From positions 62,001-126,000 of the forward strand of contig JAFWQU010000021.1 of the NCBI GenBank assembly GCA_017508975.1: a stretch of DNA of 64,000 nt, written 5' to 3'. The position numbers were made by a program, and so were the translations under genes. The DNA comes from Clostridia bacterium. GTDB taxonomy: Bacteria; Bacillota; Clostridia; Christensenellales; Aristaeellaceae. The number at the start of each line of letters is the position of its first letter. Position 1 is the stretch's first letter. Shown in pieces: positions 1,427 through 58,287 of this stretch. The notes beneath the pieces are model-generated. The model was given only the letters and a program-made list of their open reading frames with translations, was not told where the DNA came from and ran no database searches.

Positions 1427-1469
1427 TTTACGCTGTATCTCGGTTTATTGTGCTTATTCAGCGACAGGA

Positions 1470-1568
1470 TTTCGCGCCTGCGGGCCGCGGCCAGGTCCGC
1501 AGCCAGACTGGTGGCTTACCGATCTATACTGTTACTGGATTTGCAGTTTTTATTTGAGATCAGAATCA
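1470..1568 (-). repeat. 3'-UTR hairpin repeat, copy A (after purB)
   Basis: Member of a dispersed family in this window. On the plus strand it opens TTTCGCGCCTGCGGG, continues with the long-subtype insert (tccgcagccagactgg), lacks part of the second hairpin seen in copies C-E (no GCCCTGGACCTTCGG), and ends in the shared tail GTTACTGGATTTGCAG...GAGATCAGAATCAG. The tail end contains the purB stop codon (1566-1568). Seen from purB the tail comes first and the hairpins after. Confidence 0.8.
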
Positions 1569-22884: not shown

Positions 22885-22900
22885 TCCTTATGCAGAAGAG

Positions 22901-23133
22901 TTTCGCGCCTGCGGGCGCGACCAGGGCTTTCCGATCGCCCTGGACCTTCGGCAATGCACCTTTTTGGTGGTTTGGGGAAAGCGTGGACAGCCCCTCCGCC
23001 CTTCGGGCACCTCCCCAGCAAGCTGGGGCGGCACAGGTTACTGGACAATGCTTACCCATATACTCCAAAAAGGTGCAGCCCCGAAGAGTCCAGAGGCGAT
23101 CGGAAAGCCTCTGGCCGCGCCCGCAGGCGCGGA
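22901..23133. repeat. 3'-UTR hairpin repeat, copy B: inverted pair forming a 233-nt imperfect palindrome
   Basis: Left arm 22901-22967 and right arm 23065-23133 are inverted copies of the short-subtype repeat (CGCGCC-TGCG-GGCGCG hairpin, then CCAGGGC...GCCCTGG). They end at TGCACCTTTTTGG and its complement. The 97-nt centre carries GCCC-TTC-GGGC and CCCCAG-CAAG-CTGGGG hairpins and continues to pair loosely. The AT-richer tail of the other copies is missing. No coding frame in it looks real. Confidence 0.8.
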
Positions 23134-23156
23134 ACACTTTCTCTATAGAGACAGAA

Positions 23157-38822: not shown

Positions 38823-40082
38823 ATGGCAGCGGAATTCGATCTCTGGACGCTCTCCAACGGCCTGCGCGTCATCGGCAGGCGTATGCCGCATCTGCGCTCG
38901 CTCTCCGTCGGCATCTCGGTGCACGCAGGTTCCCTGATGGAGCTCCCGGAGGAGAACGGCATTTCCCATTTTCTGGAGCACATGGCCTTCAAGGGCACGG
39001 CCCGCCGCAGCGCGCGGCAGATCGCCGTGGAGATGGACGCCATCGGCGCGCAGATCAATGCCTACACCACCACCGACTGTACCTGCTTCTACGCCAAGCT
39101 GATCGACGAGGATCTCCCCCAGGTGATGGACGTCCTCTCCGATATTTTCCTGCACGCCGCCTATGACCCCGTGGAGCTGGACAAGGAGCGCGGCGTGGTG
39201 CTGGAGGAGATTGCCGCCTCGCTGGAGAGCCCGGACGACATCGTCTCGGATCTCCTGAACCGCGCGCAGTACGGCGATACCCCGGCCGGCCGGCCCGTGC
39301 TGGGCACGCCGGAGCTGGTCTCCTCCTTCCGCCGCGAGGATCTCCTCGCCTACCGGGCCAAGCACTACACGCCCGCCAGCACCGTGGTCTCCCTCTGCGG
39401 CAACTACGATCCGGAGGCTCTCCGGGAGTTGATCGAGACCACCTTCGGCGGCTGGGCCTCGGAGACGCCATTCCGTTCCGCGCAGGAGGAGACCTCGCGC
39501 CAGGGCATTGTGCTGACCCAGGATAAGGAGGACGTGGAGCAGCTCAAGCTCTGCCTCGGCTTCCCGGCCTTCAAGTCCGGCGACGACCGCAACCTGCCGC
39601 TTTCCGTGATGAACAACGTCTTCGGCGGCTCCATGTCCTCCCGCCTTTTCCAGCGGGTTCGCGAGGAGCTGGGCCTGGTCTATGCGATCTCCTCCTCCCC
39701 CTATAACGACGAGGCGCGGGGGTCTCTGGATCTCTACGCCGCGGTCTCCCCCAGGAATGCCGGACGGGTGATGGAGGAGATCGACCGGGAGCGCCGCCGT
39801 CTGCTCGCGGAACATCTGACGGAGAACGAACTGCGGGAGGTCAAGAACCGCATCCGGGTCTCGACGCTCTTCGGTCTGGAGAATCCGAGTTCCCAGATGC
39901 ACTTTATGGGCGACAGCCTGCTGGTGCTGGGCCGCGTGCGCACCACCGACGAGCGGCTTGCGCGCATCGAGGCGGTTACGCTCGCAGATGTGGAGGAGGT
40001 TGCGCACCAGGTGCTGGAGTGCAAACCATGCCTGTCCATTGTCGGTCCCTCCGCCTCCGAGCTGGGAGGTCTGCTGGCATGA
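38823..40082 (+). CDS. M16 family zinc peptidase (YmxG/MlpA-like)
   Basis: Predicted processing protease of the pitrilysin family, encoded after pnp as in B. subtilis. The 419-residue protein has the inverted zinc motif HFLEH (active Glu between the two His) at about residues 49-53, the downstream Glu in KERGVVLEEIAASLESPDD, and the C-terminal RVREELGLVYAISSS. No signal peptide, so it is cytoplasmic. Natural substrate is not known. Its TGA overlaps the ruvX start. Confidence 0.92.
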   Translation: MAAEFDLWTLSNGLRVIGRRMPHLRSLSVGISVHAGSLMELPEENGISHFLEHMAFKGTARRSARQIAVEMDAIGAQINAYTTTDCTCFYAKLIDEDLPQVMDVLSDIFLHAAYDPVELDKERGVVLEEIAASLESPDDIVSDLLNRAQYGDTPAGRPVLGTPELVSSFRREDLLAYRAKHYTPASTVVSLCGNYDPEALRELIETTFGGWASETPFRSAQEETSRQGIVLTQDKEDVEQLKLCLGFPAFKSGDDRNLPLSVMNNVFGGSMSSRLFQRVREELGLVYAISSSPYNDEARGSLDLYAAVSPRNAGRVMEEIDRERRRLLAEHLTENELREVKNRIRVSTLFGLENPSSQMHFMGDSLLVLGRVRTTDERLARIEAVTLADVEEVAHQVLECKPCLSIVGPSASELGGLLA

Positions 40083-40513
40083 ACGAGCGGATTGTCTGCC
40101 TGGACATCGGGGACGTGCGCATCGGCGTGGCCGTCAGCGACCCCGCGCGGATCATCGCCAGCCCGGTGGAGGTCATCACCCGGATCGGCTGGGGCCCGGA
40201 CACCCGGAAGATCGCCGAGATCTGCCGGCGCTATGAGACGGTGAACGTTCTCAGCGGCCTCCCGCTGAACATGGACGGCACCGAGGGCTTCCAGGCGGAG
40301 AAGGTCCGCGCCCTCTGCCGGCAGCTGGAGCTGGCGGGCCTGCAGGTGCGCTTTCAGGACGAGCGGCTGACCACCGTCTCCGCCGAGCAGTCCCTGCTGG
40401 AGGGAAACGTCCACCGCGCCAAACGCAAAACCACCATCGACAAGGTCGCCGCCGCCGTGATCCTGCAGAGCTGGCTGGATACGGCGCCGGAAGCCCGCGA
40501 AAACTTTGATTGA
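40079..40513 (+). CDS. ruvX: Pre-16S rRNA nuclease / RuvX (YqgF family)
   Basis: RNase H-like nuclease; YqgF trims the 16S rRNA 5' end, and the family is also annotated as a putative Holliday junction resolvase. The 144-residue protein has CLDIGDVRIGVAVSDP with the first catalytic Asp, LSGLPLNMDGTEG, FQDERLTTVSAEQSL and the final acid in TTIDKVAAAVILQSWL. The start at ATG 40079 overlaps the peptidase stop as ATGA; the frame is open 20 codons further upstream within that gene. Confidence 0.94.
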   Translation: MNERIVCLDIGDVRIGVAVSDPARIIASPVEVITRIGWGPDTRKIAEICRRYETVNVLSGLPLNMDGTEGFQAEKVRALCRQLELAGLQVRFQDERLTTVSAEQSLLEGNVHRAKRKTTIDKVAAAVILQSWLDTAPEARENFD

Positions 40514-40526
40514 GAGGAAATCGGCC

Positions 40527-41450
40527 ATGCAGATGCTCTGGAATCCTTCCCAAATGCAGGCGTGCGTGCTGGTTCTGGGCATGTTCGACGGAGTTCACCG
40601 TGCCCACCGGACGCTTTTTGCCGAGGGAAGAACGCTGGCCGATGCATACGGTGTGCCGCTGTGCGTCTGCACCTTCGAGCCGCACCCTCTGGAGCTGCTG
40701 GCCCCGGCGGCAGCCCCCGCGCGGCTGAGCACGCAATCAGAGCGCGCTCAGCTGATCGCGGAGGCCGGCGTGGACTTTCTCTGCGTGCACCGGTTCACCC
40801 GCGAGCTTGCGGATCAGGAGCCGGACGACTTCCTGCGGGATATTCTGCGCATCTATCGGCCGGTTGCGCTGGTCTGCGGCTATAATTTCACCTTCGGCAG
40901 ACGCGGCGCGGGCACCGTGGACCGGATCCGCGCATTCTGCGCCGCCCAGGGCATCCGGGCCTCCGTGATCCCGCCGGTGCTGTGGGAGGGACAGCCGATC
41001 AGCTCCACCCGCGTCCGCGCGGCACTGGAGGCGGGCGATCTCCCGCTGGCCAACCAGCTGCTGGGGCATCCCTATTCACTGTGCGGGACCGTGGTCCACG
41101 GCAAGGGGCTCGGGCACACCCTCTCCTACCCTACCGCCAATCTTCAGGTCTCCTCGAAAAAGCTTCTGCCCGCCTACGGCGTCTACGTCTGCACGCTGGA
41201 GACCGCTGACCGGCGCTGGCCGGCAGTGGTCAACATCGGGCGGCATCCCACGGTGCCGGACGGATCCGTGACTGTGGAGGCCTTCGTGCTGGAGGGATCC
41301 CCGGAACTGTACGGCGCGCAGGCACGGCTCCGGCTCCTGGAGCGGCTCCGCGCCGAGCAGACCTTCGCCGGCCTGGACGCGCTCCATCAACAGCTCTCGC
41401 GGGACGCCGGGGCTGCCCGCACCTGGTTTTCGCAGACAAAGGGGGACTGA
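40527..41450 (+). CDS. ribF: Bifunctional riboflavin kinase / FAD synthetase RibF
   Basis: Turns riboflavin into FMN and then FAD. The 307-residue protein has an N-terminal FAD synthetase (LGMFDGVHRAHRTL with the nucleotidyl-transfer HxxH-like motif at 21-27, CGYNFTFGRRGAG, ISSTRVRAALEAGD) and a C-terminal riboflavin kinase (GTVVHGKGLGHTLSYPTANL, YGVYVCTLE). The usual GNFDGVH reads GMFDGVH. I start at the ATG at 40527, 9 nt after AGAGG. Confidence 0.95.
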   Translation: MQMLWNPSQMQACVLVLGMFDGVHRAHRTLFAEGRTLADAYGVPLCVCTFEPHPLELLAPAAAPARLSTQSERAQLIAEAGVDFLCVHRFTRELADQEPDDFLRDILRIYRPVALVCGYNFTFGRRGAGTVDRIRAFCAAQGIRASVIPPVLWEGQPISSTRVRAALEAGDLPLANQLLGHPYSLCGTVVHGKGLGHTLSYPTANLQVSSKKLLPAYGVYVCTLETADRRWPAVVNIGRHPTVPDGSVTVEAFVLEGSPELYGAQARLRLLERLRAEQTFAGLDALHQQLSRDAGAARTWFSQTKGD

Positions 41451-41453
41451 GCC

Positions 41454-42149
41454 ATGCACATGCGGACCAAAAAGTGGGCCCGGCCGGAGCTGGCGGCCTG
41501 CCCCTGGTTTGTCGCCGAGCCGGAGCACTGCCGCGGACACTGGCGGGAGCTCTACCCCCGGGAAGCGCCCTTCCATCTGGAGCTGGGCTGCGGCAAAGGC
41601 GTCGCCACCGCCGCCATGGCAAAGGACCATCCGGAGATCAACTATCTGGCGATGGACATCTCCCCGGACGTGCTGGGGGACGCCCGCCGCAACATCGTGA
41701 AAGCCTGCGGGGAGGAGGCGGACAACATCCGCCTCGCGCGCGGGAACATCGAGCAGCTGCAGTGGTTTCTCGCCCCGGAGGACCGGGTGGAGCGGATCTA
41801 TATCCGGTTTTGCAATCCCTGGCCCCGCCGCCGTCACGCCAAGCGCCGCCTGACACACCCGCGGCAGCTGGTCCAGTACCGTGCCCTACTGCCCGAGAAC
41901 GGCGAAATCTGGTTCAAGACCGACGATGACGCGCTCTTCGAGATCAGCCTGCTGTATTTCCAGACCGCGGGCTTCGACTGTGTCCGGATGACCCGCGATC
42001 TGCACGCCTCTGGCTTCGCCCCGAACTACGTCAGCGAGCACGAACAGCGCTTCGCCGCGCAGGGGATTCCGATCAAGGCGGGCATCTGGAGAAAAAACAG
42101 CGAGGTCATCACGGAGGATTTCACCCGCTGGGAGCCGGACGAGTCTTGA
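41454..42149 (+). CDS. trmB: tRNA (guanine-N7)-methyltransferase TrmB
   Basis: Makes m7G46 in tRNA. The 231-residue protein opens MRTKKWARPELAAC (or two codons earlier), has the SAM loop LELGCGKGVATAAMA, ISPDVLGDARRNI, and the catalytic region YIRFCNPWPRRRHAKRRLTHP, with FCNPWPR in place of the usual FSDPWPK. That swap is worth noting but the region is otherwise intact. The gene follows ribF by 3 nt. Confidence 0.94.
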   Translation: MHMRTKKWARPELAACPWFVAEPEHCRGHWRELYPREAPFHLELGCGKGVATAAMAKDHPEINYLAMDISPDVLGDARRNIVKACGEEADNIRLARGNIEQLQWFLAPEDRVERIYIRFCNPWPRRRHAKRRLTHPRQLVQYRALLPENGEIWFKTDDDALFEISLLYFQTAGFDCVRMTRDLHASGFAPNYVSEHEQRFAAQGIPIKAGIWRKNSEVITEDFTRWEPDES

Positions 42150-42167
42150 AGGACGGAGCGCGCCATC

Positions 42168-42196
42168 TTGCAATCTGCTGAAATATCTGTTACAAT
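42168..42196 (+). promoter_or_regulatory. Promoter of plsX-acpP-rnc
   Basis: TTGCAA (42168-42173), 17-nt spacer, TACAAT (42191-42196). No FapR-type palindrome is seen around it. Confidence 0.78.
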
Positions 42197-42225
42197 AGGA
42201 GCGTTTTCGTGAGGAGGTGGAGTTT

Positions 42226-43215
42226 GTGCGGATCTTTGTAGACGCCATGGGCGGCGACAACGCACCGCAGGCGCCTGTAGAGGGCTGTCTGGAAGCGCTG
42301 CGCAGGTTTCCCGCGCTGGAGATCACGCTGGCCGGCGTGCTCAGCGAGGTGGAGCCGCTGCTCAAGGACTGCGATGACGTGCGCGGCCGGATCACCCTGG
42401 TGGACGCGCCGGAGATCATCACCAACCATGACCACCCGGTGATGGGTGTCCGCACCAAGAAGCAGTCCGCCACCGTGATCGGCATGCTGCAGGTCCGCGA
42501 CGGACAGGCCGACGGCTTTGTCTCCGCGGGTTCCACCGGTGCGACGCTGGCGGGCGGCATGTTCCGGCTGGGGCGGATTCCCGGCATCGAGCGACCGGCG
42601 CTGGCCCCGATCCTGCCCAACGGCAAGCGCGGCGCCCTGCTGATCGACTGCGGCGCCAACGTGGACTGCAAAGCGGATTACCTCGTGCAGTTCGGCCTGA
42701 TGGGACACGCCTATATGAAGGGCGTCATGGGCATCGAACAGCCCCGCGTCGGCCTGATCAACATCGGTGCCGAGGCGGAGAAGGGCAACGCGCTGGTCAA
42801 GGAGACCTACCCGCTGATGGAGCAGGCTCCCTACCGATTCGTCGGAAACGTCGAGGCCCGCGACCTGCTCGCGGACACCGCGGACGTTCTCGTCTGCGAC
42901 GGCTTCTGCGGCAATCTCGTGCTGAAATTCATGGAGGGTGTGGCCGGCACGCTGATGGGCATCATCAAGACCGAGCTGATGGCGGACACCCGCTCCAAGA
43001 TCGGCGCGCTCATCGCGAAACCCGCTTTCCGCCGGGTCAAGCACGCCATGGACTATTCGGAGGTCGGCGGCGCGCCGCTCCTGGGCGTCCAGGGTGCCGT
43101 GATCAAAGCCCACGGCTCCTCCAACGGACACGCCTTCGCCTGCGCCATCGCCCAGTGCGTCAAGGTGATCGAGGGCAAGGTCCCGCAGATCATCGCCGAC
43201 GGGCTGAATCATTAA
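42226..43215 (+). CDS. plsX: Phosphate acyltransferase PlsX
   Basis: Makes acyl phosphate from acyl-ACP for phospholipid synthesis. The 329-residue protein has VDAMGGDNAPQAPVEG, GFVSAGSTGATLAGG, IDCGANVDCKADYLVQF, VLVCDGFCGNLVLKFMEG and DYSEVGGAPLLGVQGAVIKAHG, the full PlsX set. The start is GTG at 42226, 8 nt after AGGAGG; the frame is open three codons more upstream. It is followed by acpP, its acyl carrier. Confidence 0.96.
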   Translation: MRIFVDAMGGDNAPQAPVEGCLEALRRFPALEITLAGVLSEVEPLLKDCDDVRGRITLVDAPEIITNHDHPVMGVRTKKQSATVIGMLQVRDGQADGFVSAGSTGATLAGGMFRLGRIPGIERPALAPILPNGKRGALLIDCGANVDCKADYLVQFGLMGHAYMKGVMGIEQPRVGLINIGAEAEKGNALVKETYPLMEQAPYRFVGNVEARDLLADTADVLVCDGFCGNLVLKFMEGVAGTLMGIIKTELMADTRSKIGALIAKPAFRRVKHAMDYSEVGGAPLLGVQGAVIKAHGSSNGHAFACAIAQCVKVIEGKVPQIIADGLNH

Positions 43216-43267
43216 CCGCGTTCTTCCCGCTTGTCGGGTTGGAATGAATAACAAGGAGGAATTCCGG

Positions 43268-43492
43268 ATGTTTGAGACCGTCGCTGGCATGATTGCCAAT
43301 CAGCTGAAGGTGGACGCCGCTTCCATCAAGCCCGAGACCCGTCTGGTGGAGGATCTCAAGGCCGACAGCGCCAACATCATGATCATGATCATGAATCTGG
43401 AGGACCAGTTCGGCATCGTCGTCGAGGACGACCAGATCATGAAGATGAAGACCGTGGCCGACGTGGTGAGCTACATCGAGAGCCATCAGTGA
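43268..43492 (+). CDS. acpP: Acyl carrier protein
   Basis: Carries acyl chains on a phosphopantetheine arm. The 74-residue protein has the attachment Ser34 in ADSANIM, where most ACPs read DSL; the rest (VEDLKADSANIMIMIMNLED, KTVADVVSYIE) is a normal four-helix ACP. AAGGAGG lies 8-9 nt before ATG 43268. Its place between plsX and rnc is the standard one, so it should be the fatty acid synthesis ACP in spite of the DSA motif. Confidence 0.93.
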   Translation: MFETVAGMIANQLKVDAASIKPETRLVEDLKADSANIMIMIMNLEDQFGIVVEDDQIMKMKTVADVVSYIESHQ

Positions 43493-43502
43493 CCTTTTGG
43501 AC

Positions 43503-43535
43503 GAGAGGGCGCAGCCTGAGCGGTTGCGCCCTTCG
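43503..43535 (+). terminator. Hairpin between acpP and rnc
   Basis: AGGGCGCA (43506-43513) pairs with TGCGCCCT (43525-43532), with extra pairs inside and outside, then TTCGTTGT. It could be a weak terminator, or a site that RNase III cuts to regulate its own message. Confidence 0.5.
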
Positions 43536-43559
43536 TTGTACATCATCCGGGAGGAAGCC

Positions 43560-44213
43560 ATGTCCGACAGGAAAACCATCCTGGGCCACTCGTTCCGGGA
43601 TCCGGAGCTATTGCGGCTCGCCCTGACCCACCGCTCCATCGGGTCTCCGAACAACCAGCGTCTGGAGTTTCTCGGGGACGCCGTGCTGGAGTACCTGGTC
43701 TCGCGGATGCTCTTCGACCGCTATCCGAACGCGGACGAGGGCGACCTGACCGCGCGCCGGATCAGTCTCGTCTGCGAGGAGACGCTGAGTGTGGTCGCCC
43801 GCCGGGAGCACCTGGGCGAGGCGCTGCAGATGAGCCCCGGGGAACTGCAGCAGGGCGGCCGGGAGAAGCCCTCCGTGCTCTGCGACACCTTTGAGGCGGT
43901 GCTCGCGGCCATCTATCTGGACGGCGGCATCGAGGCGGCCGACCAGGCGGTCCGGCGCTGCCTGCCCTCCCCCGAGGAGGCTCCGCGGCCCATTCAGAGC
44001 CCCAAGAGCGCCCTGCAGGAGTGGACGCAGCGGGGCGGCGGTTCCCTGCCGGTCTATACGCTGCTGGAGCGCTCCGGCCCGCCGCACAAGCCTGTTTTTC
44101 AGGTTTCCGTCAGTCTGAACGGCCGGGAACTGGCCCGGGGCACCGGCTCCAGCAAGCAGCTGGCGGAGCAGACCGCCGCGGAGGAGGCGCTCCGCGTGCT
44201 GCAGCGCAAATGA
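43560..44213 (+). CDS. rnc: Ribonuclease III
   Basis: Cuts double-stranded RNA in rRNA and mRNA processing. The 217-residue protein has the signature QRLEFLGDAVLEYLVS with E36 and D40, the second acid pair in CDTFEAVLAAIYLDGG, and a C-terminal dsRNA-binding domain (SPKSALQEWTQRGGG to GSSKQLAEQTAAEEAL). I start at ATG 43560 after GGAGGAAG; upstream codons cover the hairpin. The smc and ftsY genes that often follow are not here. Confidence 0.96.
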   Translation: MSDRKTILGHSFRDPELLRLALTHRSIGSPNNQRLEFLGDAVLEYLVSRMLFDRYPNADEGDLTARRISLVCEETLSVVARREHLGEALQMSPGELQQGGREKPSVLCDTFEAVLAAIYLDGGIEAADQAVRRCLPSPEEAPRPIQSPKSALQEWTQRGGGSLPVYTLLERSGPPHKPVFQVSVSLNGRELARGTGSSKQLAEQTAAEEALRVLQRK

Positions 44214-44238
44214 AAAACGGCTCCGTCTCCGGAGCCGT
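44212..44238. terminator. Bidirectional terminator between rnc and the DUF1858 gene
   Basis: ACGGCTCCG-TCTC-CGGAGCCGT (44217-44225/44230-44238). On the minus strand it is followed by TTTTTCA, a good terminator for the DUF1858 gene; on the plus strand only by CTCGTT. Confidence 0.8.
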
Positions 44239-44252
44239 CTCGTTCGCCGGCT

Positions 44253-44480
44253 TTACTGCGCCTGCGTGGGGTCCTGGGCCTTCTTGAAGTCCAGATAAGC
44301 CTGGATGTCATCCAGCACCTGGTCCGGGTCCAGGCCGTGCACCTGGCAGGCCATCTCCAGCGACTCACCGATGGAGGAAGGGCAGCCCACGCAGTGCATT
44401 CCACAGCGCATCAGCACGCCCGCGATCCCCATGTCGTAGCGGAGCATTTCGCCCATGGTGGTTTCTTTCGTGATTTCCAT
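44253..44480 (-). CDS. DUF1858 (hybrid-cluster-associated redox disulfide) protein
   Basis: Small protein with a conserved Cys-x2-Cys in GMHCVGCPSS, the pattern of the DUF1858 domain found near hybrid cluster protein genes and thought to have a redox role. The 75-residue product MEITKETTMGEML... has no membrane segment. I start at ATG 44480 with AGGAGG 11 nt upstream, not the ATG nine codons earlier. It is a single minus-strand gene between plus-strand rnc and lspA, with its own promoter and terminator. No hybrid cluster protein gene is in the window. Confidence 0.88.
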   Translation of the reverse strand: MEITKETTMGEMLRYDMGIAGVLMRCGMHCVGCPSSIGESLEMACQVHGLDPDQVLDDIQAYLDFKKAQDPTQAQ

Positions 44481-44527
44481 ACGCTTTACAGCCTCCTGCC
44501 TTCTCACTTGCGGTCATCCGCGGGGGC

Positions 44528-44556
44528 ATTATACAACGTTCTCCCCCGCTGCGCAA
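44528..44556 (-). promoter_or_regulatory. Promoter of the DUF1858 gene with flanking inverted repeat
   Basis: Minus strand TTGCGC (44551-44556), 17-nt spacer, TATAAT (44528-44533). A perfect 7-bp inverted repeat (GCGGGGG at 44520-44526, CCCCCGC at 44543-44549) brackets the -10 and could be an operator. Confidence 0.7.
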
Positions 44557-44585
44557 GAGCGGTTTTCTCTTTTGTGGGGAATGCG

Positions 44586-45035
44586 ATGAAAAAGAGCATC
44601 TGGATCGCGGTCCTGGTTCTGGTCCTGGACCGCCTGACAAAAATCCTGGCCGTGCGGCTGCAGTCCCCGGTCCCGCTGATTCCGGGCGTGGTGCGGCTGA
44701 CCTGCGTGCAGAACACCGGCGTCGCCTTCTCGCTGCTGGCGGGGCATTCCCGGCTGCTTGGGCTGATCACGCCCCTGCTGATTGCCGTGGTATGGCTTTT
44801 CGTCCGGCGCTGCCGCCAGGGACCCTGGTCCCGCACCGGCCTGATGCTGGCGCTCGGCGGCTGCGTGGGAAACATGGTCGACCGGATTCTCTCGGGATCC
44901 GTGACCGACATGGTGGAGCTCCTCTTTGTGCGCTTCGCGGTGTTCAACCTGGCGGACGCCGCGCTGGTGATCGGCGCGGTGCTCGTGGGCATATCCCTTT
45001 GTTTCTGTCCGAAGGAGTGGGAGAAGAAATCATGA
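44586..45035 (+). CDS. lspA: Lipoprotein signal peptidase II
   Basis: Removes signal peptides from prolipoproteins in the membrane. The 149-residue protein has four hydrophobic segments, the conserved D15 (VLVLDRLTKI), N43 (CVQNTGVAFSL), GNMVDRI at 95-101, and the catalytic aspartates D108 (VTDMV) and D124 (FNLADAAL). I start at ATG 44586 (MKKSIWIAVL) after GGGGAATGCG; long open frame upstream is noise. It overlaps the next gene by 4 nt. Confidence 0.94.
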   Translation: MKKSIWIAVLVLVLDRLTKILAVRLQSPVPLIPGVVRLTCVQNTGVAFSLLAGHSRLLGLITPLLIAVVWLFVRRCRQGPWSRTGLMLALGGCVGNMVDRILSGSVTDMVELLFVRFAVFNLADAALVIGAVLVGISLCFCPKEWEKKS

Positions 45036-45961
45036 CCGACGCACAGACGGTGGAAATCACGGCGGCCGGCGGGCGGCTCGATGTGGAGCTGGCCGCGGCG
45101 GCCGGCATCACCCGCTCCCGGGCGGCCTCGCTGATGGAGCAGGGGCTCTGCCTCGTGGACGGGGAGCCTGAGCGCAAGGCCGGCGCCAAGCCCCGCGCGG
45201 GCGCCCGGGTGCGGCTCACGATCCCTGCGCCCCAGCCCGCTGAGCCGCAGCCGGAAAATATCCCCCTCGAGATTCTCTGGCAGGACAACGATCTGGCGGT
45301 GGTGGTCAAGCCCGCGGGCATGGTTGTGCATCCCGCCGCGGGAAACCCCGACGGCACGCTGGTCAACGCGCTGCTCTACGCCCTGGACCACCTGGGCGGC
45401 ATCGGCGGCGAGCTCCGCCCGGGGATCGTCCACCGCCTCGACAAGGACACCTCCGGCTTGCTGCTGGTCGCGAAGAACGACACCGCGCAGCTGGCGCTCA
45501 GCCGGCAGCTGCAGCAGCGGGAGATGGAGAAGCACTATCTGGCGCTCGCCGAGGGCATCCTGAGGGAGGACGCGGGGCGGATCGACATGCCCATCGCGCG
45601 CTCCAAGCGGGACCGGAAGCAAATGACGATCGATCCCCAGGGGCGCGAGGCTGTCACCGAGTGGCGCGTCCTGGCCCGGGGAAACGGCTGTACCCTGCTG
45701 GATGTGCATATTCTGACCGGCCGGACCCATCAGATCCGCGTGCATCTGCGCTCCATCGGGCATCCGGTGTGCGGCGATCCGATCTACGGCTATCCGAAAG
45801 GGCTGAAGGTGCCCCGACTGATGCTCCACGCGCGGTCGCTCGCCTTCACGCATCCGGCTTCCGGGGAGCGCATGTGCTTCACCGCGCCGCTGCCCGAGGC
45901 CTTCCTGCGCGGCATAAAAGCCGGCGGCATTCAGCTTCCGCCGGCTCTTGAAGAGACGTAA
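45032..45961 (+). CDS. RluA/RluD family pseudouridine synthase
   Basis: Isomerises uridine to pseudouridine in rRNA or tRNA; likely the RluD/YlyB type that follows lspA in Firmicutes. The 309-residue protein has an N-terminal S4-like domain (GGRLDVELAAAAGITRSRAASLM), then the catalytic HRLDKDTSG with D137, and VHILTGRTHQIRVHLRSIGHPV. ATG 45032 overlaps the lspA stop as ATGA. The exact target site is not predictable here. Confidence 0.93.
   Translation: MTDAQTVEITAAGGRLDVELAAAAGITRSRAASLMEQGLCLVDGEPERKAGAKPRAGARVRLTIPAPQPAEPQPENIPLEILWQDNDLAVVVKPAGMVVHPAAGNPDGTLVNALLYALDHLGGIGGELRPGIVHRLDKDTSGLLLVAKNDTAQLALSRQLQQREMEKHYLALAEGILREDAGRIDMPIARSKRDRKQMTIDPQGREAVTEWRVLARGNGCTLLDVHILTGRTHQIRVHLRSIGHPVCGDPIYGYPKGLKVPRLMLHARSLAFTHPASGERMCFTAPLPEAFLRGIKAGGIQLPPALEET
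45915..45946 (-). terminator. Terminator of uxaB-uxaA inside the 3' end of the pseudouridine synthase gene
   Basis: Minus strand AGCCGGCGG-10 nt-CCGCCGGCT followed by TTTTATG. It lies beyond repeat copy C as seen from uxaA. Confidence 0.75.
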
Positions 45962-46001
45962 TGCAGTTTTCTCTGGAAACTCGGAATTCTTACAAGGGGA
46001 A

Positions 46002-46121
46002 TTTCGCGCCTGCGGGCGCGACCAGGTCCGCAGCCGGACTGGCGGCTTTCCGATCGCCCTGGACCTTCGGTCACATGCTGTTGCTGGATTTGTAATTCTT
46101 ACTTGAGATTAGTATTATCAG
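46002..46121 (-). repeat. 3'-UTR hairpin repeat, copy C (after uxaA)
   Basis: Longest clean copy. Plus-strand order: CGCGCC-TGCG-GGCGCG hairpin, GTCCG-CAGC-CGGAC mini-hairpin (long subtype), GGCTTTCCGATCGCCCTGG, ACCTTCGG, then the tail TGTTGCTGGATTTG...TACTTGAGATTAGTATTATCAG. The tail faces uxaA, 15 nt from its stop. It lies in the shared 3' region of two convergent genes. Confidence 0.85.
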
Positions 46122-46127
46122 ATTTTT

Positions 46128-46157
46128 CGGCGTCGCTTAGAGGGTGACGCCGTTTTT
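46128..46157 (+). terminator. Terminator for the lspA/pseudouridine synthase unit, overlapping uxaA 3' end
   Basis: CGGCGTC (46128-46134) pairs with GACGCCG (46146-46152), followed by TTTTTG. The T-run lies inside the uxaA coding end. Confidence 0.78.
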
Positions 46158-47609
46158 GAATATCGCCAGGTCGTGGAAGCCGTGCTCCTCCGAGCAGACC
46201 TCCTGTCCGCCCGCGACCGCCAGCACCAGCTCTTCCAGTTCGGCGGCCAGGTCCTTCAGGCTCATGCCCTGGGACAGCAGCCGCCCCGCGTCGAAGTCGA
46301 TCCAGTTGCGCTTTTTCTTCGCCAGCGGCGTGTTGGAGGCAATCTTCACCGTGGGCACCGGGCAGGCGAAGGGCGTCCCGCGTCCCGTGGAGAAGAGCAC
46401 CATCTGCGCACCCGCCGCGGCCAGCGCCGTCGCGGCCACCAGATCGTTTCCGGGCGCGGAGAGGAGGTTCAGGCCCGGCGTCTTCACCTGCTCACCGTAG
46501 CGGAGCACGTCCCGCACCGGCCCGAAGCCGCTCTTCTGCGTGCAGCCCAGCGCCTTGTCCTCCAGCGTGGAGATGCCGCCGGCCTTGTTGCCCGGGGAGG
46601 GATTCTCGTAAATCGTCTGGTGGTGTTCCTCAAAGTAGTGCTTAAAGTCATTGATGAGCGAGACCGTCTTGCGGAAGACCTCCTCGTTCTCCGCGCGGGC
46701 CATCAGGATGGTCTCCGCGCCGAACATCTCCGGAACCTCCGTGAGGATCGTCGTGCCGCCTCGTGCGGTCAGCAGGTCCGAGAAGCCGCCGATCGTGGGG
46801 TTGGCCGTGATGCCGGAGAAACCGTCGGAGCCGCCGCACTTGAGTCCCACCACCAGCTTGGACGCCGGACAGGGCACCCGCTGCTCGTCCCGCATGCGGT
46901 CCGCCAGCTCGCCCAGCAGCCGCATGCCCTCCGCGAGCTCATCCTCCACATCCTGGCAGACCAGGAAGCGCACCCGGCTCTCGTCGAAGTCTCCCATGTA
47001 CTCGCGCAGGATCTTCACGCCGCTGTTCTCGCAGCCCAGACCCAGCACCAGTACGCCGCCGACGTTGGGGTGGGTCGCCAGGTTCGCCAGAATCCGGCGG
47101 GTGTTCTCCTGGTCCTCGCCCATCTGGGAGCAGCCGTAGGGGTGCCGGAACGCGGCGACGCGCTCCACGCCGCCCCCGACCAGCTCCTGCGCTTCCTGCT
47201 CCAGCGCCCGCGCCACGTCGTTGACACAGCCCACGGTCGGCAGAATGCACAGCTCATTGCGGATGCCCACGCGGCCGTCCCTGCGCGGATAGCCCGGGAA
47301 GGTGCGCTCCGGCAGCGGCTCCAGCGCCGGGTGGGTCGGCTGGTAGGTATAGGACAGCTCACCGGAGAGCCGCGTCTTGAGGTTGTGCACATGCACATGG
47401 CTGCCCGCGGGGATGTCCTCCTTCGCGGAGCCGATCGGGAAGCCATATTTGATCACCGGCTGTCCCGCGGGGATGTCCGCCAGCGCCACCTTATGTCCGG
47501 CCGGGACGTCGGTGCGGAGGGTAAGCCCCTCCACCGTCTCGCCCGCCGACAGCGGTTCCAGCGCCACCGCGACATTGTCCCGGGGGGTGATTCTGAGGCA
47601 TTTGTTCAT
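46137..47609 (-). CDS. uxaA: Altronate dehydratase UxaA
   Basis: Dehydrates D-altronate to 2-keto-3-deoxygluconate in galacturonate breakdown. The 490-residue protein has an N-terminal SAF domain (to about 80) and the large UxaA dehydratase domain (FPGYPRRDGRVGIRNELCILPTVGCVN, HPYGCSQMGEDQENT, GLKCGGSDGFSGITANPTIG, NPSPGNKAGGISTLEDKALG), with conserved Cys that may hold iron. It follows uxaB by 24 nt. The next steps, KdgK and Eda, are encoded 10 kb away. Confidence 0.95.
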   Translation of the reverse strand: MNKCLRITPRDNVAVALEPLSAGETVEGLTLRTDVPAGHKVALADIPAGQPVIKYGFPIGSAKEDIPAGSHVHVHNLKTRLSGELSYTYQPTHPALEPLPERTFPGYPRRDGRVGIRNELCILPTVGCVNDVARALEQEAQELVGGGVERVAAFRHPYGCSQMGEDQENTRRILANLATHPNVGGVLVLGLGCENSGVKILREYMGDFDESRVRFLVCQDVEDELAEGMRLLGELADRMRDEQRVPCPASKLVVGLKCGGSDGFSGITANPTIGGFSDLLTARGGTTILTEVPEMFGAETILMARAENEEVFRKTVSLINDFKHYFEEHHQTIYENPSPGNKAGGISTLEDKALGCTQKSGFGPVRDVLRYGEQVKTPGLNLLSAPGNDLVAATALAAAGAQMVLFSTGRGTPFACPVPTVKIASNTPLAKKKRNWIDFDAGRLLSQGMSLKDLAAELEELVLAVAGGQEVCSEEHGFHDLAIFKNGVTL

Positions 47610-47633
47610 GGATTCTTCCCTCCGTCCGGCCGC

Positions 47634-49106
47634 TCAGCCGCCAAACCGCTCGTCCACAACCGCCTTCATGCCCTTTTCCAGGATCTCCGTGAGCATATCG
47701 GTGACGGTATCCGCCAGGCACGGGATCTTCGTGAGGTCCTGTCCGAAGAAGGATTCATCGGAGAGGAAAGCCCGCACCTGCTCCGCGGGCGTCAGGCCGC
47801 TCGTCTCCGTGAAGAAGCGGAGCACCGCCGCGTCGTCCTGCAGCTCGTAGGGCTGTCCCGCGCGCTCGCAGTGCAGCTTGCCGTCCTCGCCCAGCTTGCC
47901 GCCGCGGTAGAGGCTCATCATCGCCGCGATGGAGAAGGTCAGGTGCGGCGGCAGGCTGCCGTTCTTCTCCACATAGCCCAGCAGGGAGGGCAGGCAGCGG
48001 GCGCGCCACTTGCTGACGCAGTTCAGACAGATCGACAGCAGCTGGTGACGGATGAAGGGGTTGGCAAAGCGTCCGGTCACCGCCTCCGCAAAGGCCGTCA
48101 GATCCTCCTTCGGCAGAGTCAGGGTCGGGATCACCTCATCGTAGAGGGTCTTCTGCATGAACGTGCGGATCACCGGCGCGTTCATCGCCTCCAGCACGAT
48201 GTCGCAGCCGTACTGGAACGCCATGGGCACAAAGGAGGTGTGGGCGCCGTTCAGGATGCGCACCTTGCGCTGCTTGTAGGGCTTCTGGTTGTCGGTATAG
48301 ATCACCGGCAGCCCGCAGGCCGGCAGCGGTAGCTCGTCGGAGAGATCCCGGCTGCTCTCAATCACCCACAGGCCGAAGGGCTCCGCGGTCACCAGGATCC
48401 GGTCCTCGTAGCCCAGCTTCTCCCAGATCGCCTGGTCCTCCCCGCGGGGATAGCCGGTCACGATCCGGTCCACCAGTGTGGAGGTGAAGACACAGGCGTT
48501 CTCCAGCCACTGCTCGAACCGCTCGCCCAGCCCCCAGATTTTCGCCAGCGCCTTCACGCAGCGCTTGAGCTCGATGCCGTTGTCGTCGATCAGCTCCACC
48601 GGCAGGATGATCAGGCCCTTGTCCGGCGCGTAGTCGAACGCCTCCGCGCGCTCGTAGAGGAACTTGGTCAGCTTGCCCGGATAGGTGTTGGGCGGGCAGA
48701 GGGAGATCTGATCGCTCTCGTCCAGCACAATGCCCGCCTCGGTGGTGTTCGAGATGATGAAGCGGAGCGTCTCGCAGCGGGCGTAGGCGGCATAGCGGTC
48801 ATACTCCCGGTAGGCGTCCACCGCGTCGGAGACGCTGGTGATCACGCGGGACTGCTCCACAGGCTTCCCGTCCACCAGGCCGCGGAGCATCACGGTATAG
48901 CGATAATCCTGCTCCCGGAAGGCCGGGAAGAGGGTGCCGATGTTGATGGGCTTCACCAGCACCACGCTGCCGTTGAAGTCCGTCTTCTCGTTGGCAATAT
49001 CGATCATCCAGTCCGCGAAGGCCCTGAGGAAGTTTCCCTCGCCGAACTGCAGCACCCGGACCGGGCGCTCGGGGGCGGGCGCCATCGTCGCATTCAGTCT
49101 ATCCAT
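47634..49106 (-). CDS. uxaB: Tagaturonate reductase (altronate oxidoreductase) UxaB
   Basis: NADH-linked reduction of tagaturonate to altronate. The 490-residue protein belongs to the long-chain mannitol dehydrogenase family: N-terminal VLQFGEGNFLRAFADWMID (nucleotide site), and the signature KVRILNGAHTSFVP in the middle with catalytic Lys. GGAGG is 8 nt before the ATG. First gene of uxaBA, with a promoter divergent from lacZ. The isomerase UxaC that would feed it is not in the window. Confidence 0.95.
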   Translation of the reverse strand: MDRLNATMAPAPERPVRVLQFGEGNFLRAFADWMIDIANEKTDFNGSVVLVKPINIGTLFPAFREQDYRYTVMLRGLVDGKPVEQSRVITSVSDAVDAYREYDRYAAYARCETLRFIISNTTEAGIVLDESDQISLCPPNTYPGKLTKFLYERAEAFDYAPDKGLIILPVELIDDNGIELKRCVKALAKIWGLGERFEQWLENACVFTSTLVDRIVTGYPRGEDQAIWEKLGYEDRILVTAEPFGLWVIESSRDLSDELPLPACGLPVIYTDNQKPYKQRKVRILNGAHTSFVPMAFQYGCDIVLEAMNAPVIRTFMQKTLYDEVIPTLTLPKEDLTAFAEAVTGRFANPFIRHQLLSICLNCVSKWRARCLPSLLGYVEKNGSLPPHLTFSIAAMMSLYRGGKLGEDGKLHCERAGQPYELQDDAAVLRFFTETSGLTPAEQVRAFLSDESFFGQDLTKIPCLADTVTDMLTEILEKGMKAVVDERFGG

Positions 49107-49152
49107 TTTTCATTCCTCCATCCCGGCGGCTCCCGGCCGCTCCTTATAATCT

Positions 49153-49182
49153 ATTTTACAACGTTTCTGCGGATTCCGTCAA
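49153..49182 (-). promoter_or_regulatory. Promoter of uxaB-uxaA
   Basis: Minus strand TTGACG (49177-49182), 18-nt spacer, TAAAAT (49153-49158). Confidence 0.7.
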
Positions 49183-49220
49183 GGCTGTCCGGACGCAGAA
49201 AAGAAATTCCGTGGGAGGGC

Positions 49221-49248
49221 TTGCAAAAACATCCCTACGTTTTATAAT
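49221..49248 (+). promoter_or_regulatory. Promoter of lacZ
   Basis: TTGCAA (49221-49226), 16-nt spacer, TATAAT (49243-49248), about 28 nt before the ATG. The -35 elements of this and the uxaB promoter are about 40 bp apart, so one regulator could serve both. Confidence 0.75.
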
Positions 49249-49276
49249 GATTTAGAGAACGCCGAGGAGGTGCACT

Positions 49277-52255
49277 ATGTTCGCAGAACAATTCAATCCC
49301 GCCTGGCTGGCTGACCCGGAGGTTTTCTCCGTCAATCAGCTCTCCGCCTGCTCCGACCATGAGATTTTCGCGTCCGCAGAGGAACGGGAGAGCAGCCTGG
49401 TCCGCTCCCTGAACGGCACCTGGCGCGCGCATTTCGCGATGAACCCCGGCACGGCGCCGGACTGTCTGCTGACCGACGGCAGCTCGGATGCGTCGCTGGA
49501 GGCGATCGAGGTCCCCTGTGAATTCCAGCTGCTGCGCCCGGACTGGGATCCGCCGCACTATGTGAACGTTCAGTATCCCTGGGACGGCCACGAGGCACTG
49601 GTGCCTCCGCAGGTCTCCGAGCTGTACAACCCCACCGTCACGGCCGTACGCCGCTTCACCGTGGAAGAGCAGGAGCTCCGCTGCGGCCGCGCGGTGCTGA
49701 CCTTCGAGGGCGTGGAGGCCGCGGTTGCCGTCTGGCTGAACGGCCGTTTTGTGGGCTACGCGGAGGACAGCTTCACCCCGCACCGCTTCGACGTCACCGC
49801 TGTTCTGCAGGCCGGCGAGAACCGGCTTGTCGCCCGCGTCTTCAAGCGCTGCACCGGCACCTGGATGGAGGATCAGGATTTCTGGCGGTTCAGCGGCATC
49901 CACCGCGATGTGACGCTGACCTTCGAGCCCGCCGTCCACCTGGCGGATCTCTTTGTCCGCACCCCGCTGGAGGAGCAGTACACCCGCGCGTTCCTCGAGG
50001 CGGATCTGACCCTCGACCGCCCGCAGGGCACCGTCCAGGTGCAGCTCACCGATCCCAGCGGCGCCGTGCTGCTGGACGAGACGCTGGACGCCTCCGCCGC
50101 GCTCTCGCTGCGGCGCGAGATTCCGGGCGTGCACCTCTGGTCCGCGGAGGAGCCCTGCCTGTATCCGCTGACAGTCACCCTGCGCGACGCACAGGGCGCG
50201 GTCGTGGAGGTCTCCCGGCTGCAGGTCGGCTTCCGGCAGTTTGAGATGATCGACAAGGTCATGTGCCTGAACGGCCGGCGGATCGTCTTCCACGGCGTCA
50301 ACCGGCACGAGTTCGACTGCGACCGGGGCCGCGTGATGACGCACGAGCTGCTCCTGCACGACCTGCGAGACATGAAGGGCATGAACGTCAACGCCATCCG
50401 CACCTGTCATTATCCGAACAACTCGATGCTGTACCGTCTCTGCGACCAGTACGGCTTCTATGTGATCGACGAGACCAATATCGAAACTCACGGCACCTGG
50501 GCGCGGGAGGACCGGGGCGCGGGCGCGGTGCCCGGCTCGCGGCCCGACTGGCTGGAGGCCGTGCTCGCCCGCGGCCGCGCCATGCAGGAGCGCGACAAGA
50601 ACCACCCCTGCATCCTGCTGTGGTCCTGCGGCAACGAGAGCTGGTTCGGCGAGGACCTGCTGGCCCTGTCCAACCTCTTCCGCCGCCGCGACCCCACCCG
50701 CCTGGTGCACTACGAGGGCTGCTGGCCCAGCGAACAGTACAGCGCCACCTCCGATGTCTACTCCCGGATGTACTACAAGGTGGCGGACATTGAGAACTAT
50801 CTGAACGGCAATCCCCAGAAACCCTTCATCAACTGCGAGTACACCCACGCCATGGGCAACTCCTGCGGCGGCATGTGCCATTACCGGGACCTGGAGGACC
50901 GCTACCCCATGTACCAGGGCGGCTTCATCTGGGACTATGTGGACCAGGCGCTGCGGGTCAAAAACATTAACGGAAAGACCCGCCTGGCCTACGGCGGCGA
51001 TTTCGGTGACAAGCCCAACGACTGGCACTTCAACACCAACGGCATCATCCTGGGCGACCGGACGCTGACCCCCAAGGTACAGGAAATCCGCCAGCTCTTC
51101 GCAGACGTCACGCTGATCCCGGACCTGCAGGGCGTCGAGGTCCGGAACCGCAAGGTCTTCGCTCCCCTGAAGGGCTATGAGCTGCGCTGGCGGGCGCTGT
51201 ACAACCGGGAGACCTGGGAGGAGGGCATTGCCGCCCTGCCGGAGATCCCCGCGGGCGGTTCCGCGCACGTTCAGCTGCCGCTGGAGGAGCTGGCGGAGCG
51301 CGACGGCGAGATTATCCTGACCGCCTGGCTGGTGACCGCGCAGGAGGGGCTGCTTCCCAAGGGCTTTGCGCTGTCCTTCGGGCAGACGGTGTTCGGCGAA
51401 CTTCCGGCTGCGGCCAAGGCGGAGTCCCTGCCCTGGATTCTCTGCGACCACAACCTCGGCGTGCGGAAGCTGGGCGTGCTCGCCTCCCGCGGCGAAGGCA
51501 TCATCTCCCTGCGCGACGCGCTGGGCCGCGAGACGCTGCTGCGCGCGCCGCTGCTCTCCCTCTTCCGCGCCCCCACGGACAACGACCGCGGCAACAAGGA
51601 CGCCCTGCGCCAGGGCATATGGCACCTGGTGAGCCGCTACAGCCGTATGTCCTCCGCGGAGGTGGAGGGCGATACCGTCACCTGGCGCTATACCAACGAG
51701 ACGGTGCCGGGCATGGATCTCTCCCTCTCCCTGACCCCGCAGACGGACGGCCTGTGCTTCCGGCTGCACTGGCGCGGCACGGCGGGGCTGCCGGATCTGC
51801 CCGCCTTCGGCCTCTCGCTGCAGATGGATCCGCGGCTGCATGAGGTCACCTACTTCGGCGCCGGCCCCGACGAGAACTACGCGGACCGCTGCCGGGGCGC
51901 CTGGCTGGACTGGCACCGCTATGACAGCCGGACCGCGCTGACACGCTACGCCAAGCCCCAGGAGTGCGCCAACCGCCGCCAGGTCTCCGTGCTGCGCCTC
52001 ACCGACGAGACCGGCCACGGCGTCGAGCTGACGGGCGAGAATCTCGAGGTGCATGTGCTCCCCTATCTGCCGGAGGAGATCGGCGCGGTCTGGCATCCGG
52101 ACGAGCTGGGCGAGACCTGCCGCACGGTCCTGGACGTCGCGCTCTTCCGCAAGGGCGTGGGCGGCGACGACAGCTGGGGCGCGCCGGTGCTGCCCGTTTA
52201 CACCTATCCCTCGGACCGCGACTGGACGCTCACCTTCAAGCTGCGCGGCATCTGA
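49277..52255 (+). CDS. lacZ: Beta-galactosidase, GH2 family (LacZ)
   Basis: Hydrolyses terminal beta-galactosides such as lactose. The 992-residue protein has the five-part LacZ layout: sugar-binding beta domain, two immunoglobulin-like parts, TIM barrel and C-terminal small chain (from about 720). Acid/base is E454 in WSCGNESWFG and nucleophile E521 in INCEYTHAMGNS. No signal peptide, so it acts in the cytoplasm on imported sugar; no transporter gene is adjacent. AGGAGG lies 7 nt before the ATG. Confidence 0.96.
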   Translation: MFAEQFNPAWLADPEVFSVNQLSACSDHEIFASAEERESSLVRSLNGTWRAHFAMNPGTAPDCLLTDGSSDASLEAIEVPCEFQLLRPDWDPPHYVNVQYPWDGHEALVPPQVSELYNPTVTAVRRFTVEEQELRCGRAVLTFEGVEAAVAVWLNGRFVGYAEDSFTPHRFDVTAVLQAGENRLVARVFKRCTGTWMEDQDFWRFSGIHRDVTLTFEPAVHLADLFVRTPLEEQYTRAFLEADLTLDRPQGTVQVQLTDPSGAVLLDETLDASAALSLRREIPGVHLWSAEEPCLYPLTVTLRDAQGAVVEVSRLQVGFRQFEMIDKVMCLNGRRIVFHGVNRHEFDCDRGRVMTHELLLHDLRDMKGMNVNAIRTCHYPNNSMLYRLCDQYGFYVIDETNIETHGTWAREDRGAGAVPGSRPDWLEAVLARGRAMQERDKNHPCILLWSCGNESWFGEDLLALSNLFRRRDPTRLVHYEGCWPSEQYSATSDVYSRMYYKVADIENYLNGNPQKPFINCEYTHAMGNSCGGMCHYRDLEDRYPMYQGGFIWDYVDQALRVKNINGKTRLAYGGDFGDKPNDWHFNTNGIILGDRTLTPKVQEIRQLFADVTLIPDLQGVEVRNRKVFAPLKGYELRWRALYNRETWEEGIAALPEIPAGGSAHVQLPLEELAERDGEIILTAWLVTAQEGLLPKGFALSFGQTVFGELPAAAKAESLPWILCDHNLGVRKLGVLASRGEGIISLRDALGRETLLRAPLLSLFRAPTDNDRGNKDALRQGIWHLVSRYSRMSSAEVEGDTVTWRYTNETVPGMDLSLSLTPQTDGLCFRLHWRGTAGLPDLPAFGLSLQMDPRLHEVTYFGAGPDENYADRCRGAWLDWHRYDSRTALTRYAKPQECANRRQVSVLRLTDETGHGVELTGENLEVHVLPYLPEEIGAVWHPDELGETCRTVLDVALFRKGVGGDDSWGAPVLPVYTYPSDRDWTLTFKLRGI

Positions 52256-52275
52256 CCGCCGGAAGGAGAATCCCC

Positions 52276-53193: not shown

Positions 53194-53272
53194 ATCCCGG
53201 GCAGCAGGATTTTCCAGCTGCTCCCCGAAATAGAAAAGCCATCGGCTCAACCGATGAAAAGGAGGATGAAAC

Positions 53273-53452: not shown

Positions 53453-53495
53453 CAGCCCCCGCAGTCCGGTTTTCCGGCTGCGGGGGCTGCGTTTT
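53453..53495 (+). terminator. Terminator after rubredoxin
   Basis: CAGCCCCCGCAG-T-CCGG-TTTT-CCGG-CTGCGGGGGCTG, 16 pairs with one bulge, then CGTTTTC. It may also stop minus-strand transcripts coming from the dinB unit. Confidence 0.85.
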
Positions 53496-53537
53496 CATAT
53501 CAATCTCAGTATCATGCGCTAAATGTCAGCAGGGAAA

Positions 53538-53637
53538 TTTCGCGGCCTGCGGGCCGCGACCAGGGCTTTCCAATCGCCCTGGACCTTCGGATACATACCG
53601 TTACTTGATTTGCAGTTTTACTTGAGATCAGTATCAC
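53538..53637 (-). repeat. 3'-UTR hairpin repeat, copy D (tandem pair, distal)
   Basis: Short subtype. CGCGGCC-TGCG-GGCCGCG (one pair longer than in copies B and C, same loop), CCAGGGC-TTTCCAATC-GCCCTGG, ACCTTCGG, then the tail CCGTTACTTGATTTGCAG...CTTGAGATCAGTATCA. It abuts copy E head-to-tail in the same orientation. Confidence 0.85.
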
Positions 53638-53750
53638 GGTCTGCGAACCGCAGCCAAGTCCGCAGCCGGACTGGCGGCTTTCCGATCGCTCTGGACCTTC
53701 GGATGCATACTGTTACTTGATCGATCGTTTTTGCTTTGGATCAGTATCAG
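53638..53750 (-). repeat. 3'-UTR hairpin repeat, copy E (tandem pair, next to the 81-residue gene)
   Basis: Long subtype with a different first hairpin (CTGCG-AAC-CGCAG), then AGTCCGCAGCCGGACTGG, GGCTTTCCGATCGCTCTGG, ACCTTCGG and the tail ending GGATCAGTATCAG. ATACTG and CAGTAT pair across the tail. The stop codon of the 81-residue gene (53747-53749) lies in the last bases. Confidence 0.83.
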
Positions 53751-58281: not shown

Positions 58282-58287
58282 AGGTTG

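Follow-up and report, generated by a model that had tools for sequence, protein, structure and literature searches.

MITEs tied to IS630-type elements, MITEs inserted into other MITEs and a MITE that sits mostly in 3′ untranslated regions are all known from published work. Relatives of IS630 are described, in the portions of the literature available, as duplicating TA rather than TNA (PMC2229807, PMC8533490). The RUP element of Streptococcus pneumoniae, associated with IS630-Spn1, is presented in the accessible parts of three sources as a non-coding repeat of ~107 bp in more than 100 copies, and it shares with the repeat described here IS-like ends of the IS630 family, an intergenic location and insertion of copies into each other (PMC2229807, PMC3049150, PMC10969869). 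Correia elements (NEMIS) of Neisseria come in forms of 107 and 155 bp, according to the excerpt available (PMC2229807). Our literature search, in sources available in part, found no description of the repeat family reported below, nor of a TNA duplication made by an IS630 element. As far as these searches go, three things are new: the family, its pairing of a TNA duplication with an IS630-type partner, and the common core module.

We analysed a stretch of 64,000 nt (the window), in which a sequence-only reading had found six related units, and the genome assembly to which it belongs (1,518,939 bases, 26 contigs, 66% complete). One of these units, copy C, gave 56 blastn matches in this assembly. 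From alignment A1, which holds 41 of 47 extracted copies (the six left out lacked the standard tail or were not needed), we built the covariance model R1. It recovers five units within the window (E 1.2e-7 to 6.5e-37, Table 1), and the sixth is among the genome-wide matches, in agreement with the earlier count. Against the whole genome R1 gave at least 150 matches, which rules out a chance resemblance and shows that further copies exist. The weakest among the best 150 matches scores 88.5 bits; since copies A and B of the window both score below it, the true copy number is higher. Likewise, 15 of the 100 end patterns listed lie away from the best 150 R1 matches, and most of the 12 stretches read around such patterns proved to be further copies, which again puts the true total above 150. 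A search of the window with Rfam returned no family at its gathering score; around copy C the sole match at E ≤ 1 was of 17.6 bits, with E 0.79, far under its cutoff.

Table 1. Coordinates of repeat features in the window
Feature	Position	Strand	R1 match	Remarks
MITE copy A, degenerate	1430..1565	+	1467-1572, 79.2 bits	left end approximate, right end read from sequence
TCA flank of copy A	1566..1568	.		stop codon (TGA) of called gene 1566-2999(-)
Copy B, inverted core pair without MITE ends	22899..23137	.	22898-22990 (+), 58.3 bits; 23037-23137 (-), 39.4 bits
MITE copy C, long form	45962..46114	+	45999-46121, 149.4 bits	TIR fit
GC-rich core of copy C	46001..46073	+		hairpin 1 CGCGCC-TGCG-GGCGCG, hairpin 2 CCAGG...CCTGG, ACCTTCGG
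Right flank of copy C, TTA	46115..46117	.		read beside right end
Left TCA target duplication, copy D	53495..53497	.		flanks TCA/TCA
MITE copy D, short form, complete, both TIRs	53498..53633	+	53535-53640, 114.0 bits	TIR mismatches 1 and 0
Right TCA target duplication, copy D	53634..53636	.		flanks TCA/TCA
MITE copy E, long form, left end missing	53637..53746	+	C21:115630-115753 (window 53630-53753), 95.3 bits
TCA flank of copy E	53747..53749	.		stop codon (TGA, minus strand) of called gene 53747-53992(-)

Alignment of the flanks showed that the unit reaches well to the left of where it had been placed. The earlier coordinates cover the middle of the unit and miss its left third; complete copies such as C and D start ~37 nt further left. 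The full unit measures 134-155 bp (51 copies with equal flanks) and is bounded by imperfect terminal inverted repeats (TIRs), TACYRATCTCA...TGAGATYRGTA. A complete copy runs from a TNA triplet through TACTGATCTCA..., an AT-rich left arm, a GC-rich core, an AT-rich right arm and ...TGAGATTGGTA to a second TNA. The core comprises hairpin 1, CGCG(G)CC-TGCG-GG(C)CGCG, hairpin 2, CCAGGGC-TTTCCGATC-GCCCTGG, and ACCTTCGG. Hairpin 1 is 6 or 7 bp long, and in the longer form a G and a C are gained jointly. A long form carries 18 more bases within hairpin 2. Among the best 150 copies, 59 combine a 7-bp hairpin 1 with the short form, 26 a 6-bp hairpin with the short form, 25 a 7-bp and 17 a 6-bp hairpin with the long form, and 23 are of other kinds. 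The presence of all four combinations points to recombination or gene conversion among copies. Coding capacity is slight, with a longest ATG-initiated ORF of 36 amino acids in the median and 50 at most (86 copies), and the R1 matches in the window have a GC content of 0.52-0.62.

Variants of this layout also occur. Two loci on contig C13 are fold-back forms, near-perfect palindromes of ~100 bp with MITE ends, in which the left end is followed by hairpin 1 and then by the left end again, inverted (L340, G000:C13:45000-45600; L341, G000:C13:51200-51800). At the edge of contig C7, a 168-nt stretch (L336 310-477, G000), examined as a possible partner, begins with a MITE-like left end and continues into unrelated sequence cut by the contig edge. 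Only its first ~29 bases recur, it has no notable Pfam match, and it could be a truncated copy or another element.

The units in the window differ in how much of this layout they keep. Copy C has an intact right end (TTGAGATTAGTA, 0 mismatches) and a degenerate left TIR (5/11 mismatches), and its hairpin 2 holds the 18-nt extra hairpin TCCGCAGCCGGA. Its left flank, TAA at 45959-45961, is the stop codon of the plus-strand gene 45032-45961 and differs from the TTA on its right, so either the target duplication is impaired or the left boundary has been misplaced. Copy C had been tied to a minus-strand gene; the terminator-like hairpin beside it (46128-46152) lies on the plus strand, which fits gene 45032-45961 instead. 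Copies D and E, read earlier as two units, both exist, but E is a left-truncated copy abutting the complete D. Copy B, too, is real but is built differently from the other units, with two cores arranged as an inverted pair that encloses a CCTCCGCCC...CTGGGG module. Within it, window positions 22975-23045 hold a CCTCCGCCCTTCGGGCACCTCCCCAGCAAGCTGGGG module, apparently a further repeat, which is met again in other elements of the genome with paired cores. At window positions 46090-46118 a promoter-like match (TTGTAA, 17, TATTAT; 9/12) points out of copy C across its right end, where one such match was found and 0.1 in shuffles; the left arm contains TTGACA, also reading outwards.

The flanks of the units argue that they have moved as DNA. 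Both ends are recognisable at no more than 2 mismatches of 11 in 86 of the 150 copies, and 51 of these 86 have identical 3-bp flanks, all of the form TNA (TCA 20, TGA 15, TAA 8, TTA 8); a permutation control gave a mean of 19.1 and a maximum of 33. In the first 26 two-ended copies the flanks were identical in 17. Agreement is confined to the adjoining triplet, the next triplets outwards being equal in just 3, 1 and 1 of 86 copies. The 14-base end pattern TNATACYRATCTCA has 159 exact matches in the genome and none when read backwards, and 0-13 matches in each of 11 other genomes of the genus. Moreover, 4 of the 51 equal-flank copies sit in another copy, and removal of the insert restores an intact element over the junction. 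These nested empty sites identify the duplicated unit as TNA, not TA, and together with the TCA and TGA flanks they cannot be explained by duplication of TA alone; the TA dinucleotide duplication of RUP-like elements is thus not what we find here, the N of TNA being variable. Another copy lies within 90 nt of 20 of the 150 copies. The flanks are unequal in 35 of the 86 two-ended copies, and one or both recognisable ends are missing in 64 of the 150. An empty site was also sought in the relative G005 (query window 40001-60000), where gene matches fell on many small contigs and synteny around copies C, D and E was too poor to use. With terminal inverted repeats, a target site duplication, a short, non-coding sequence in many copies and a partner with the same ends, the repeat family is a MITE. 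It has the appearance of mobile DNA spread through the genome of a gut bacterium, not of a signal for mRNA ends.

The likely source of transposition is an IS630-type element. In the sister species G007, facing end patterns bound an element of 1,107 bp that has TAA on both sides and the ends TACTAATCTCA; its two ORF products match the DDE_3 / transpos_IS630 and winged-helix families (second ORF 128.9 bits, over the cutoff; first ORF 49.6 bits, under it). By eye, the transposase of this element (L058 1504-2610) is split over two frames that overlap at an A run, an arrangement reminiscent of programmed frameshifting. In the MITE's own genome, an end TAA|TACTAATCTCAG at the edge of contig C15 adjoins a 40-aa transposase piece, and contig C11 carries a 148-aa piece with a diverged end; these pieces are cut by contig edges, and the assembly holds no complete IS630-type copy. 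Transposase homologues occur in 3 of 12 genomes of the genus and in 18 of 150 genomes sampled from the family. At 7 of 13 transposase loci, for which a TNA flank was a condition of the search, TAC...GTA inverted ends lie ~1.1 kb apart and are TNA-flanked, and in 3 of these 7 the flanks agree. The 11-bp end common to the MITE and the IS630-type element is identical in consensus. Past these 11 nt no significant likeness between MITE and IS was detected (best P 0.058, others 0.29-1.0), and we therefore rejected an origin of the MITE interior from the IS. Because the shared ends extend over 11 nt, with nothing significant beyond, and the genome's own transposase copies are cut off, the partner is likely, not proven. 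As a side observation, the IS630-type element appears by eye to abut gene stop codons itself, TAA and TGA, at two loci (L086 and L087; G000:C11, G001:C63).

The TNA duplication raises a different candidate. IS1031 and PIF/Harbinger relatives duplicate TNA, while IS630 duplicates TA, so the MITE could instead be moved by an IS5/IS1031-type or other TNA-duplicating transposase, its resemblance to IS630-type ends having arisen by chance or convergence. We find this very unlikely. PF13340 (DUF4096), which we take to be the N-terminal domain of the IS5/IS1031 group, is absent from all 12 genomes of the genus, on which ground an IS5/IS1031 partner was rejected, and the 11-bp end with a TNA flank is found at IS630-type genes across the family.

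We then turn to where the copies lie. The sequence-only reading had placed every unit between a stop codon and a terminator, outside genes and promoter regions, and had suggested a 3′-UTR element affecting mRNA ends or a mobile sequence tolerated only there. Genes were called with our own caller (62 genes, 93% of the window), which was applied to 92 stretches around copies. None of 150 copies lies in a gene interior, which upholds the first exclusion, and 7 overlap a gene 3′ end by 9-33 nt. Of the remaining 143, 47 fall between convergent, 82 between co-directional and 12 between divergent genes, while 2 border a contig edge. The 47 convergent against 12 divergent copies differ from an even split (P 5e-6), and in the same stretches, which were chosen around copies, the convergent:divergent ratio is 41:9 with a copy vs 8:13 for copy-free gaps of at least 50 nt (P 5e-4). 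The absence of copies from gene interiors and their deficit between divergent genes fit selection against broken genes and promoters.

Several of these figures would be accounted for if selection maintained a 3′-UTR RNA element at gene ends, be it a terminator, a processing site or a stabiliser of mRNA. The convergent, co-directional and one-sided copies, 131 of 143 in all, have a facing gene 3′ end or one side unknown; 65 of 143 copies lie no more than 40 nt from a stop codon; and the hairpins of copy D are stable (z -5.2). Other features of the same copies speak against it, and we consider it highly improbable. Start codons lie within 40 nt of 38 of the 143 copies, which, with the 12 copies between divergent genes, also shows that the claimed avoidance of promoter regions does not extend to the whole genome. 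Among the 82 co-directional copies, the upstream stop is the closer neighbour of 45 and the downstream start that of 36, and orientation relative to transcription is 44 vs 38 (P 0.58). Terminator-like hairpins were sought around the 156 gene 3′ ends that have a copy no more than 250 nt away. In 39 cases a hairpin precedes the copy and none follows, in 33 one follows and none precedes, 18 have hairpins both before and after, and 66 have none, according to a loose finder that also scores in 22 of 300 random 120-nt chunks; the proposed position between stop and terminator does not hold genome-wide, nor do we find a single orientation. Copy C folds barely better than its shuffles (z -1.5 and -1.8), and in the own genome two-sided compensatory change was seen in 0 of 14 pairs (41 copies). 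A terminator inside the element was rejected, since terminator-like patterns are no commoner in it than in shuffled copies (50/86 vs 46/86) and the strict form is absent. Given where the copies lie, how they are oriented and where terminators fall, we rejected a 3′-UTR function as the main explanation, although some copies might affect mRNA. The suggestion of a mobile sequence tolerated only there fared better in its first half: mobility is supported by the inverted ends, by the duplicated TNA, by empty sites within other copies and by a transposase gene that shares these ends.

Stop codons themselves could also be the target. In 25 copies, including A and E, the flank is the in-frame stop of a neighbouring gene. 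Relative to random TNA sites in the same gaps, this is the case for 15 of 50 copies with agreeing flanks, where 10.2 are expected (P 0.03), but the excess shrinks to 27 of 118 vs 21.2 (P 0.06) when all end-supported copies are counted, and TCA and TTA, which are stops on the other strand only, are as common as TGA and TAA. With so weak an excess (P 0.03-0.06) we rejected specific targeting of stop codons, to which we give hardly any credence. Of 410 called genes, 391 end in TGA or TAA, and nearly every gene end is therefore a TNA site. Most of the placement would then be what an element with a TNA target leaves after selection against damage.

The GC-rich hairpin core has a wider distribution than the MITE. 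R1 has matches in 11 of 12 genomes of the genus, with counts in the relatives of 102 (G009), 99 (G011), 34 (G005), 30 (G001), 20 (G004), 6 (G010) and 2 (G003), one in each of three genomes and none in another. Despite their 99 and 102 matches, G011 and G009 contain 0 and 1 exact end patterns. The DNA of copy C finds matches at E ≤ 0.001 in 8 of 40 relatives, all of the same genus, and a stricter core pattern occurs in at least 89 stretches of public genomes, nearly all labelled uncultured Clostridia and, among the matches listed, many from rumen or omasum. In the own genome the right end is missing in 35 of 150 copies, and in 10 of those 35 a second, inverted core lies within 330 nt (by eye), as in copy B. 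RGIG2676 has paired cores enclosed by different MITE-like ends, GGNTCTTCACG, with ~8-bp flanks (L224, L228, L261 and other loci). Of the 8 flanking bases, 7 or 8 are equal in 3 of 10 of these elements and in 0 in the control, one of 11 rows being excluded for want of a left flank. Such ends and flanks give an ISL3-like picture. The core is thus a separate, genus-wide module that is also present without MITE ends. One contig labelled Bacteroidales carries two cores (L284, JAFRQH010000040.1); its source is the goat omasum sample that also yielded RGIG2676, and its label is probably a binning error.

Cores without MITE ends, and inverted core pairs as in BIMEs, are what one would expect of a REP/BIME-type repeat moved by a Y1 (RAYT) transposase, an explanation that would apply to the core and its pairs and not to the flanking ends. 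REPs carry a GTAG foot, which was not seen in the copies read. Y1_Tnp (PF01797) has no match in the own genome and 4 loci in 3 of 12 genomes of the genus, none with a core in the flanks examined. Lacking any association with Y1_Tnp loci, a RAYT partner for the core was rejected, and we regard this explanation as unlikely.

Within the core, hairpin 2 has many arm sequences with pairing retained (361 cores, 35 types), and hairpin 1 varies with compensation between species (by eye); the sole within-species support for compensation is the paired 6/7-bp form of hairpin 1. In addition, 17 of 17 arm classes have equal C runs in two places, in the 3′ arm of hairpin 2 and at the end of the unpaired trailer, just ahead of TTCG; in AAA stems the mirror ends after two C. 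Shuffles gave a mean of 4.4, and none of 20,000 shuffles reached 17, a figure that is not a probability because the arm classes are related by descent and each contributes one trailer. For this comparison 23 rows were typed from the 35 types (7 loop variants merged, 5 types with 4-5-bp stems dropped), and each arm class was represented by its commonest trailer, so that minor trailers that break the rule, such as ATCC on a 3-C stem (1 head), are uncounted. The coupling of stem and trailer possibly reflects a third-strand contact or a guide. More speculatively, the core may be a mobile structured-DNA module in its own right, taken up by at least two unrelated transposon types (those with IS630-type ends and those with GGNTCTTCACG), in which the rule that the C run of the hairpin 2 3′ arm is mirrored in the unpaired trailer would serve a triplex-like third strand or a guide for a single-strand nuclease or transposase; we consider this rather unlikely.

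Taken as a whole, the repeat is, with high probability, a non-coding MITE with TACYRATCTCA ends and a TNA duplication, moved by an IS630-type transposase, placed by selection and carrying an acquired core. An IS630-type transposase would move the MITE, and most of the placement, intergenic and poor between divergent genes, would be what selection has left. Two stop codons, TAA and TGA, are themselves TNA triplets; when the element lands on one of them the stop is rebuilt, which makes gene ends safe sites. The MITE would have acquired its GC-rich double hairpin from a separate repeat module of the genus, whose role, at our best guess, may be to form a single-stranded DNA structure used in its own spread.

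An apparent 3′-UTR regulator thereby becomes a case of a mobile element with a simple and testable logic, in which a target triplet that covers two of the three stop codons may let an element settle on gene ends without harm. To the elements associated with bacterial IS630-type transposases the findings add one that duplicates 3 bp, TNA. They also describe a structured module that several types of mobile element share throughout an uncultured genus of ruminants, and the joint changes of its stem and trailer call for explanation.

Set against known systems, the core resembles the REP/BIME repeats of enterobacteria in being an abundant, intergenic hairpin module with inverted pairs; it differs in that no Y1 transposase is found in the genome or beside cores and in the ordinary cut-and-paste type ends around most copies. 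Zator elements duplicate TNA. Among relatives in the ITm (IS630-Tc1-mariner) group, Fot (TAA) and Sailor (TATA) are described in the available excerpts as departing from TA duplication as well (PMC7386202, PMC8533490). Fot, Sailor and Zator belong to eukaryotic or other groups, whereas here a bacterial IS630-type gene goes with any TNA. QMITE2 of Coxiella burnetii, a MITE reported in the accessible text to lie mainly in 3′ untranslated regions, sets a precedent for placement (PMC10969869), although the present repeat has no 3′-UTR specificity and the two were compared by description. Correia elements are similar in being short MITEs with TIRs and a shorter and a longer form that differ by an internal segment (PMC2229807, in part); their ends, TA-motif target and host are different, and the extra segment here is 18 nt. 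RUP, for its part, differs from the present repeat in end sequence and, as far as the excerpts describe it, in its TA target where ours is TNA. It is also AT-rich, at 27.5% GC (PMC3049150, in part), unlike the repeat in the window, whose higher GC content is due to the hairpin core.
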